DNA of 64,000 nucleotides from Gammaproteobacteria bacterium (lineage in GTDB: Bacteria; Pseudomonadota; Gammaproteobacteria; Enterobacterales; Psychrobiaceae): contig JABSRU010000007.1 in NCBI GenBank assembly GCA_013214965.1, positions 62,001 to 126,000 of the forward strand, read 5' to 3'. The notes beneath the pieces are model-generated. The model made no database searches, was not told the origin of the DNA, and saw only the letters and a list, made by a program, of their open reading frames with translations. The translations under genes were made by a program, and so were the position numbers. Shown here piece after piece: positions 61,703 through 64,000 of the stretch; position 1 is the first letter of the stretch; every line of letters starts with the position of its first letter.

Positions 61703-63610
61703 TTATTTAGGCTCAACTAACATACGACCACGCATTTCCATGTGTAGGGCATGACAGAACCAGTTACAGTAATACCACTGAACACCCGGCTTATCAGCAA
61801 TAAAGGTCACTGAAGCCGTGGCTTGTGGGCTAATTTCCATTTGCACGCCATGGTTAGTCATACAGAAACCGTGGGTAACATCTTCAATCATATCGAGGTT
61901 AGTGATAATGACGGTGACTTCGTTACCTTCTTTGACTCTAAACTCAGTCATGCCATAGTTTGGCGCAACAGACGTCATGTAAACACGTACTTTGTTGCCT
62001 TCACGAATCACTTTATTATCTGTTTCAAGGGTAACGCCATCTTTCTTCGCTTTTGCAACGGTGCTTGCAAAGAATGGGTCATCGCGAGTCCATAATTTAG
62101 CTGGCTTTAGCTTAGAGCGATGAACCATCATCACATCATGGGGTTCAGCAAAAGCAGGGCCGTCATGTAATAGCACCATTTCATCGCCAGAAATATCGAT
62201 TAATTGATCGTTTTCAGCGCGTAATGGACCGACATTTAAGAAGCGATCTTTTGAGAACTTACACAGTGATACTAGGTATTTACCATCGGCATCACGGGTT
62301 TCACCCATGGTTGTATGGTTATGACCGGGTTGATAGTGGACATCTAACTTCTGACGAATGTAGTTTACTTTTTTACCGTTGTAAGCAGCAATCGCTTCAT
62401 CGATATTCCATTTAACAATTTGGCTATCGATAAATAGCGTGGTGTAAGCAAAACCGCGACCATCGAAGGCGGTGTGCAATGGACCTAAGCCTAGTTCTGG
62501 CTCACCAATCACCGCTTTACGTGGGTCTAAGTTATTATCAAATACTTCCGCTAGTTTTTTGATTGATACGATCGACACAGTTGGTGATAGCTTACCGTTA
62601 ATCATAAAGTAATCACCATTTGGTGAGGTATTGATGCCGTGAGGACTCTTAGGAATAGGCACATAACGAGTGATTTTAGCTTTCGCATTGTCTTTTGTAC
62701 CATCTAATACAGGGACTTTTGAATCACCAATAGTGATGAATTGACCCGCTTTAACCGCTTTTTTAATGGCATGTAAATCGAATACGACAATATGGTCCCG
62801 CTCTGCACTGATCATTTCACCTAAGGTCATGCCCATTTCTGAGTTATAACAGGTTGATGCCATGAAACGACCATCGTAATCGGCATCGGTATTATCTAAG
62901 TTACCTGAGACAATGACTTGTGCGAACACTTCCATTTTTTCAGCATCGATGATGTTAAACATTGAACGGTAAGCACTGACGTTGTCTAAATCGCGGCCAT
63001 CGTTTGGTAATGGAATTTCATATTCGCCATTACAAAATACATATTTGGTAAAAGGGACTTTTTGGGTTCGCAAACCGTGGATCGCTTGAACATTTGGAAT
63101 TTCAATAATCTTATCTGTTTTCATCACGTCACAACGAATACGTGCAACACGGGTGTTGGCTTTATCATTAATGAAAACGTATTTACCGTTATAACGACCA
63201 TCGGTCATTGACATGTGAGGGTGATGACAATCGCCAGTCAAAAAGCGTTGTGATTCACCTAAAATTTCTTTTGATTCGTTGGTGATGCCCCAACCAGTTG
63301 CACTATCAACATTAAATACTGGAATTCGCATTAATTCACGCATTGAAGGTATACCTACGACGCGAACTTCACCCGACTGACCACCACTCCAAAAACCGTA
63401 GTACTCATCGAGTTCACCTGGGGCAACGCTGGCGTGAGCTGCCATTTTTTCTTTGGTTCTTGCCGTGGCAGCAGCGGAAAACATCGCTGAAGTCATGACT
63501 GGAGCGGCTAAACCTACACCACCAATAACTGCGCCAGCACCAAGGAAGCTACGGCGACTAAGACCTTTGATTTCTTCTTGTTCTATTTCATTATTTTTGA
63601 TGTCACTCAT
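61703..63610 (-). CDS. nosZ: Nitrous oxide reductase NosZ, clade I, Tat-exported (635 aa)
   Basis: The periplasmic copper enzyme reducing N2O to N2. The Tat signal holds RR (19-20) in [12 protein letters not shown], the mark of clade I. The N-terminal propeller carries the CuZ histidines, including DCHHPHMS, and [12 protein letters not shown] and [14 protein letters not shown] follow. The C-terminal cupredoxin domain carries CuA: Cys615, Cys619, His623 and Met626 in [13 protein letters not shown] chose the ATG at 63610 (GGAG upstream); a TTG four codons earlier is in frame. nosR lies upstream and nosDFYL downstream, the usual clade I order. Confidence 0.97.
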
Positions 63611-63641
63611 TTTTTTCTCCAAAAATGCCTTTACGGCGGAC

Positions 63642-63733
63642 GCGGTTGGAATATGACCGCATTTGATGTGTTTTGTGTATATCTTCGGTTTACGTTGGGT
63701 GTCAAATACGGCTGGAATAGGGCCGTATTTGAC
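63642..63733. repeat. Two similar hairpins with a shared loop in the nosR-nosZ gap
   Basis: Copy 1 has arms GCGGT and ACCGC (63642-63646, 63656-63660). Copy 2 has perfect 12-base arms (63701-63712, 63722-63733). Both have nine-base loops of the form TGGAATANG. The copies match at about 20 of 27 positions, and two of the differences keep base pairing. They lie between the nosR stop and the nosZ start. They may be regulatory RNA, or a dispersed REP-like repeat; there is no family I can name. Confidence 0.65.
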
Positions 63734-63785
63734 TTTTATTTATTATGGTCTAAACCACTTTTTTGAAAGATAGCAAAATTATTGT

Positions 63786-64000
63786 TTAGCCAACTTGCTT
63801 TATATCAATTGTTTGCTCGTTGCTTGGAATTTTACGACGACGCTTTCTCGCCATTTTCATCAGTGGTGGACACTTTTTGTCATCATAATAGGTGACTTGG
63901 CAATCAAGACAGTAATGGCATTCACGGAGGTTGATGGTGCCATCGGGATGAATCGCTTGAATTTCGCATTCCACGGCACAAGTATTACAAGGACCGCACT
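63786..64000 (-). CDS. nosR: NosR, C-terminal part only
   Basis: The frame continues past the right edge. The visible end contains CGPCNTCAVECEIQAIHPDG, a 4Fe-4S ferredoxin motif, then INLRECHYCLDCQVTYYDD and CPPLMKMARKRRRK, which is the usual C-terminus of NosR. NosR is the membrane flavo-iron-sulfur protein that supports electron supply to NosZ and nosZ expression. It is followed by nosZ after about 175 bp in the same direction. Confidence 0.92.
   Translation of the reverse strand, partial: CGPCNTCAVECEIQAIHPDGTINLRECHYCLDCQVTYYDDKKCPPLMKMARKRRRKIPSNEQTIDIKQVG

Follow-up and report, generated by a model that had tools for sequence, protein, structure and literature searches.

Two related hairpins before nosZ and a predicted FNR-type nosZ promoter at the end of nosR in a gammaproteobacterium

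The greenhouse gas nitrous oxide is removed by NosZ, whose gene is transcribed separately in some nos clusters and not in others: passages in PMC5582078 report monocistronic nosZ transcripts in P. stutzeri, E. meliloti, and Pa. denitrificans, and passages in that paper and in PMC6152468 describe some nos clusters as one polycistronic mRNA. The window analyzed here, by which we mean the whole stretch of 64,000 nucleotides, carries two hairpins in the gap between nosR and nosZ and thereby raises the question of what these hairpins are. An earlier note on this DNA had offered three readings, namely, a nosZ mRNA leader element, a binding-site pair, and a dispersed repeat family, and had taken compensated changes in the stems as a sign of selection.

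The assembly of the window's genome comprises 4.25 Mb and is 95.7% complete. The nos genes of the window lie on the minus strand, with nosR followed by nosZ after 175 bp (Table 1). Family models confirmed the identity of NosR and NosD, and the ABC ATPase, membrane protein, and small lipoprotein-like protein beyond were named nosF, nosY, and nosL from position, as expected. The nosZ gene was taken to begin at the ATG in Table 1, the open reading frame list having a TTG at 63622; across loci, start codons and nosR stops were set by rule (a ribosome-site motif before an ATG) and not curated. Gaps longer than 175 bp occur in 4 of 87 other nosZ loci (with L090 left out of the count and reported apart), so that the length by itself is not exceptional. 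Both hairpins of the earlier note are present where it had placed them. On the sense strand, the promoter-proximal copy (HP1) reads GTCAAATACGGC-CCTATTCCA-GCCGTATTTGAC, with 12 perfect pairs, and the start-codon-proximal copy (HP2) reads ATGCGGT-CATATTCCA-ACCGCGT, with 7 pairs including one G-U; the two are 66 bp apart with a linker of 38 nt and agree in 20 of 24 letters. The copies are alike in their similar loops and in the core and unequal outside it: the outer 5 bp of HP1 are absent from HP2, and the likeness ends near the hairpin edges. Neither the stem length of HP1 nor the likeness of the copies is due to chance, as none of 1,000 dinucleotide shuffles of the gap reached a 12-bp stem (largest, 10) or a 20-of-24 likeness (largest, 18). 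The gap folds with a z score of −4.6 on the sense strand versus −2.0 on the other. Read in the antisense direction on the plus strand (63701-63733), HP1 is followed by TTTTATTTAT and resembles an intrinsic terminator for antisense transcription; three terminator-like sites lie on the plus strand in 63500-63900, two of them being HP1 and HP2.

Table 1. Features of the nosR-nosZ region, with positions in the window; L010 and L011 are the nosZ loci of the two close relatives
Feature	Position	Strand	Remarks
nosZ, clade I TAT-dependent nitrous-oxide reductase	61703..63610	-	ATG at 63610
nosZ ribosome-binding site GGAG	63617..63620	-	same letters in L010 and L011
Small hairpin GCC-GTAAA-GGC	63627..63637	-	in minimum-energy folds, weak; between HP2 and ribosome-binding site
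HP2, start-codon-proximal copy	63640..63662	-	7-bp stem, 9-nt loop CATATTCCA
HP1, promoter-proximal copy	63701..63733	-	12-bp perfect stem, 9-nt loop CCTATTCCA; seen in this genome only
Predicted nosZ transcription start	63760 (within a few nt)	-	inferred from class II spacing
Candidate −10 hexamer TATCTT	63767..63772	-	starts 30 nt downstream of box centre; same hexamer and offset in L010 and L011
nosR 3' end	63786..64000	-	gene runs past window edge; stop codon 63786-63788
FNR/DNR-type box TTGATATAAAGCAA	63795..63808	-	9/10 of TTGAT-N4-ATCAA; inside nosR 3' end; identical in L010 and L011

To place the hairpins among relatives, NosZ was searched in 394 genomes of the order, drawn evenly from the larger group; 37 matched, one of them weakly, and only one besides the window's own genome exceeded 75% identity. 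Among the best 80 of 159 nosZ loci on genome contigs, the next after the two close relatives stood at 78%. These relatives are L010 (NosZ identity of 91%) and L011 (87%), and the locus L091 of the congeneric genome G003 is the same DNA as L010 over the stretch compared. Both L010 and L011 have one hairpin just before nosZ, with arms GCGGT and RCCGC and differing loops. The 5-bp core of HP2 is kept in L010 (with one G-U) and in L011, its arms being identical at 9/10 and 10/10 positions, unlike the stretch between TATCTT and the stem, where few letters are common to the three loci; codon agreement between pairs of nosR genes at identical residues is likewise only 45 to 48%. HP2 therefore looks to be under constraint, as judged from these alignments, its arms having been kept while the neighboring stretch and the codons diverged. 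HP1 was found in the window only and not in the two closest nosZ relatives found. The earlier note had suggested comparing the gap in related nos clusters and had held poor conservation in close relatives against a nos-specific role; such poor conservation applies to HP1 and not to HP2.

Beyond this clade, a covariance model (R1) was built from HP1, HP2, and the L010 hairpin. The 8-nt-loop hairpin of L011 was omitted, having been misplaced in four-hairpin alignments; it was spotted by eye, and R1 did not report it at an E value of 5. The model reported no HP1/HP2 hairpin before nosZ in 85 other loci, a result to be read with the fact that R1 misses L011 too. In 15 of these 85 loci, some hairpin of at least 7 pairs occurs in the 220 nt before nosZ, several of them inside nosR and none with the HP1/HP2 sequence; at this threshold, the stems of L010 and L011, at 5 to 6 bp, go unlisted, and short stems elsewhere would be missed. 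A hairpin of unrelated sequence, TGGCTAC-gccg-GTAGCCA with a 7-bp stem, precedes the nosZ ATG of Shewanella sp. OPT22 (L015) by 15 nt. As for folding, the window leader has a z score of −4.4, and those of L010 and L011 fold no better than shuffles (z = −1.1 and −0.5).

Moreover, the comparison revealed a conserved block in the last nosR codons, where a run of 22 nt identical in the three species contains the FNR/DNR-type box, which was recognized only after the block had been seen. It is the sole three-way identical run of at least 14 nt in the 2,205-column nosR codon alignment; taken alone, the codon-run statistic is marginal (257 of 5,000 permutations reach a 22-nt run), and the identity may partly reflect protein constraint. 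When the three loci are lined up on the box without gaps, TATCTT is the only six-letter run that they share past the stop codon, and a shared 6-nt run in the 45-nt segments arose in 0 of 20,000 base-composition shuffles; the hexamer matches TATAAT at only 4 of 6 positions. At class II activator promoters, the box center lies about 41.5 bp before the start and the −10 hexamer about 30 nt after the center. The locus resembles the class II nos promoters of the FNR/DNR/FixK2 kind in its box, matching TTGAT-N4-ATCAA at 9/10 positions about 41.5 bp before the predicted start, and differs from them in having its box within nosR, in the 3' coding end of that gene and ahead of nosZ, and in that its start is predicted. 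In B. diazoefficiens, passages in PMC5582078 place one nosR start site 40.5 bp from the axis of a FixK2-like box. Considering these spacings, the box and TATCTT probably form a class II promoter layout for nosZ.

The count of boxes across loci points the same way at the stricter threshold: all 3 hairpin loci have a box with at most one mismatch within 250 nt upstream of nosZ, as against 1 of 85 other loci, control windows giving 27 of 964, whereas boxes with at most two mismatches are not enriched before nosZ (16 of 88 loci versus 283 of 964 control windows). Left out of this count, and of that of gap lengths, were the window duplicates L008, L009, L099, and L100, the L010 DNA of L091, and L102 and L103. 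The genome encodes FNR (NF008365, 403.7 bits against a cutoff of 228) and a DNR-like regulator, whose best match among solved structures is DNR (3dkw, 3.1e-30). Upstream of nosR, 9/10 FNR-type boxes are present in all three species, with no shared hexamer at +30. One such box outside the window, ATGATCAAGATCAA at 4485-4498 of L101 (minus strand), matches at 9/10 positions and is centered 78 nt before the nosR ATG. Over the whole window (1-64000), 17 FNR-type boxes with at most one mismatch were counted, more than expected, as 100 shuffles gave 5.5 on average and 11 at most. A promoter noted by eye, TTGACA at the edge of the HP1 3' arm with TATACA 18 nt on, was not seen in the relatives and was dropped because the candidate promoter of FNR box and TATCTT is conserved. 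Elsewhere in the genus, the nosZ loci of G004, G006, and G007 (L092 to L094) encode NosZ that is 72 to 73% identical and have short gaps and no FNR-type box at one mismatch. Judging from these differences, the genus seems to hold two nos lineages, with horizontal transfer as a possible cause.

With the class II layout upstream of both, HP1 and HP2 probably lie in the 5' untranslated leader of nosZ, and the "mRNA leader element" of the earlier note gains support from this position and from the conservation of HP2 in two relatives, which amounts to three sequences from one clade. The predicted leader measures about 150 nt in the window, 86 nt in L010, and 90 nt in L011. From TATCTT to the first stem core, the distance is 46 nt in the window (HP1), 44 nt in L010, and 51 nt in L011; from the last stem core to the ATG, it is 31 nt (HP2), 35 nt, and 33 nt, respectively. 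HP1 thus holds the place of the relatives' hairpin as measured from the promoter and HP2 that place as measured from the gene, and the window leader is longer than those of the relatives by about one unit. The simplest account, which we favor with fair though not high confidence, is that a 66-bp duplication in the window's lineage gave HP1 and HP2. The "about six DNA turns" of the earlier note does not hold, because with 10.5 bp per turn the 66 bp make about 6.3 turns, and a duplication would explain the spacing without appeal to DNA turns. The flanks of HP1 and HP2 are no longer alike, so that the case for duplication rests on the spacing; either the flanks diverged afterwards or what took place was a smaller, more complex event.

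Nearer the gene, the small hairpin of Table 1 has counterparts in L010 (GCC-GTAA-GGC) and L011 (CCC-GCTA-GGG), and a different fold was obtained with a shorter L010 piece. Folding predictions for the window and L011 place some of the GGAG letters in pairs (their partner in the window being a CC from the stretch that separates HP1 from HP2), and for this reason the leader, which could affect translation either way, might lower rather than raise it. An anti-Shine-Dalgarno role of the loop (UUCCA versus UUGGA), possible in the window, was dropped, as the L010 loop cannot pair so. Stem-loops in the 5' untranslated regions of E. coli ompA and papA stabilize the mRNA, and the present hairpins resemble them as GC-rich stem-loops in a predicted leader upstream of a ribosome-binding site. 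Compared with the known stabilizing stems at the 5' terminus, HP1 lies further in, beginning 27 nt past the predicted start. Leader effects on nos expression have a precedent in Bradyrhizobium ottawaense: passages in PMC12999732 report that nosZ expression fell when the nos promoter and untranslated region were swapped together and did not fall when the promoter alone was swapped, and they suggest a hairpin as the cause of the lowered expression. The nosZ-only transcripts mentioned at the outset are a further likeness, separate nosZ transcription being established in those systems, and a hairpin leader goes unmentioned in those passages of PMC5582078. A description of this nosZ leader was not found in the open-access papers searched.

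Taken together, the best explanation, to which we give an even chance, is an FNR-family-driven nosZ leader in which an ancestral hairpin was duplicated and which acts in cis on the nosZ message. At low oxygen or in the presence of nitric oxide, FNR or the DNR-like protein would bind the box in the last nosR codons, and the bound activator, at class II spacing, would bring RNA polymerase to TATCTT, with a start near 63760. The ancestral leader would have carried one GC-rich hairpin of the HP2 type, its core ending 31 to 35 nt before the ATG, and duplication of about 66 bp in the window's lineage would have produced the present pair. In cis, a hairpin may govern ribonuclease access or the openness of the ribosome-binding site and so set nosZ output apart from that of nosR. 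The effect on stability or translation, together with its direction, is the weakest step of this scheme as deduced from sequence; the chances that HP2 affects the nosZ message seem roughly balanced, and an effect of HP1 is doubtful. A bolder version, which we consider improbable, is a clade-specific cis-regulatory RNA composed of GC-rich hairpin, small hairpin, and ribosome-binding site, with an RNA-binding protein or a small RNA as its reader, in which the duplicated hairpin would provide two-hairpin control atop the FNR/DNR promoter.

The compensated stem changes bear on a different reading. Two core pairs do differ on both sides between HP1 and HP2 (G-C/A-U and U-A/C-G), as the earlier note had observed, and they are weak evidence of the selection that it had drawn from them, because they come from two copies in one genome and a single template switch could make them. 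Pair covariation on the three sequences is not significant, 102 of 500 shuffles being as good. According to PMC8794818, a single template switch in replication can give rise to perfect stems and to compensatory changes of several bases. The hairpins could, although this is rather unlikely, be devoid of function, HP1 having acquired its perfect stem and compensated pairs from the duplication and a template switch that copied one arm and HP2 being an inherited remnant. HP1 agrees with such an origin in being perfect over 12 bp, with outer pairs absent from HP2, L010, and L011 (the pattern of one switch event), and in being seen in one species only, whereas HP2 agrees with it poorly, its core arms having kept 9/10 to 10/10 letters in L010 and L011 where the stretch before them kept few and codon agreement is 45 to 48%.

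Operators, meaning DNA palindromes to which a regulator binds, are an improbable alternative to RNA elements for HP1 and HP2, and this is the form in which the binding-site pair of the earlier note survives. HP1 is indeed a perfect 12-9-12 inverted repeat, arm and loop letters are common to both copies, and passages in PMC1274295 describe, for other bacteria, nos genes with candidate DNR and NsrR sites nearby. However, both hairpins come after the conserved FNR box and the −10-like element in the direction of transcription, the letters of the loop were not kept in L010, R1 finds no copy upstream of nosR in L101, and duplication accounts better for the 66-bp spacing of the pair, given that each of the two relatives carries a single copy. 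Further copies, which a regulator site would usually have, were not found in the genome: a degenerate 23-mer allowed up to three mismatches matched only the HP1 and HP2 places in the whole assembly (reversed control pattern, 1), and the bare loop motif TGGAATANG is common with little excess (111 matches versus 87 for the control). When the gap served as a BLAST query against 9 genomes of the genus, a strong match was obtained in the window's own genome only, where the next match elsewhere had an E value of 0.68, and a weak one in G003 (E value of 0.004, 53 nt, 78%), in the corresponding position ahead of nosZ; the remaining matches had E values of at least 0.02. In the 9 congeneric genomes, R1 placed HP2, HP1, and the G003 hairpin at E values of 3e-7 or better and all else listed at 0.003 or worse; nine of the weaker matches, viewed by eye over about 240 nt each, look like background. 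The best of the weak matches (L138, 24.7 bits) falls inside a 393-amino-acid open frame amid prophage-like frames, and another (L141, 18.3 bits, in G006) forms a similar GC-rich hairpin. In Colwellia chukchiensis (L076, 5008-5039), a terminator-like hairpin with AAAATGCGGC...GCCGC lies downstream of nosZ and scores 21 bits with the model.

Far less probable still are antiterminator or attenuator signals bound by an RNA-binding protein, of the ANTAR/NasT kind known from the nosR leader of Bradyrhizobium. That system likewise has hairpins in the leader of a nos gene, passages in PMC6759348 and PMC5582078 describing a NasT-bound hairpin leader of nosR, and two hairpins stand in a nos gene leader here as well, but the present hairpins depart from it in the size and signature of their loops and in the length of their linker. 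Passages in PMC3369931 define the ANTAR target RNA as two hairpins with hexanucleotide loops, A at position 1 and G at position 4, and a linker of 5 to 12 in eut genes; the present loops have 9 nt and contain no G, hence no A1/G4 signature, and the linker is 38 nt. No intrinsic terminator (a stem and then a T run) is listed on the minus (sense) strand in 63500-63900, and no Rfam family reaches the gathering score in 63000-64000 (best, 22.2 bits against a cutoff of 60). The ANTAR domain PF03861 was not found in the genome, a profile that matched no control genome either. As for copies of a dispersed palindromic repeat (REP-like or MITE), two copies with a common loop and varied stems could be so read, yet a search of 4.25 Mb at up to 3 mismatches in 23 found two copies, both in the nos gap, and the reading is scarcely credible; the repeat family and the many unrelated locations considered in the earlier note thus fall away, the HP1/HP2 sequence also not having been found in phage or plasmid records or E. 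coli genomes, nor as an exact degenerate pattern in IMG/VR.

The feature is thus real, small, nos-specific, and of an ordinary kind, and it has a by-product, namely, a predicted promoter and start site for nosZ. It also illustrates that compensated hairpin copies from one genome can mislead about selection. If the reading as an FNR-driven nosZ leader is true, a gammaproteobacterial clade would have its own nosZ promoter hidden in nosR together with a structured leader, with a concrete start site for nosZ.
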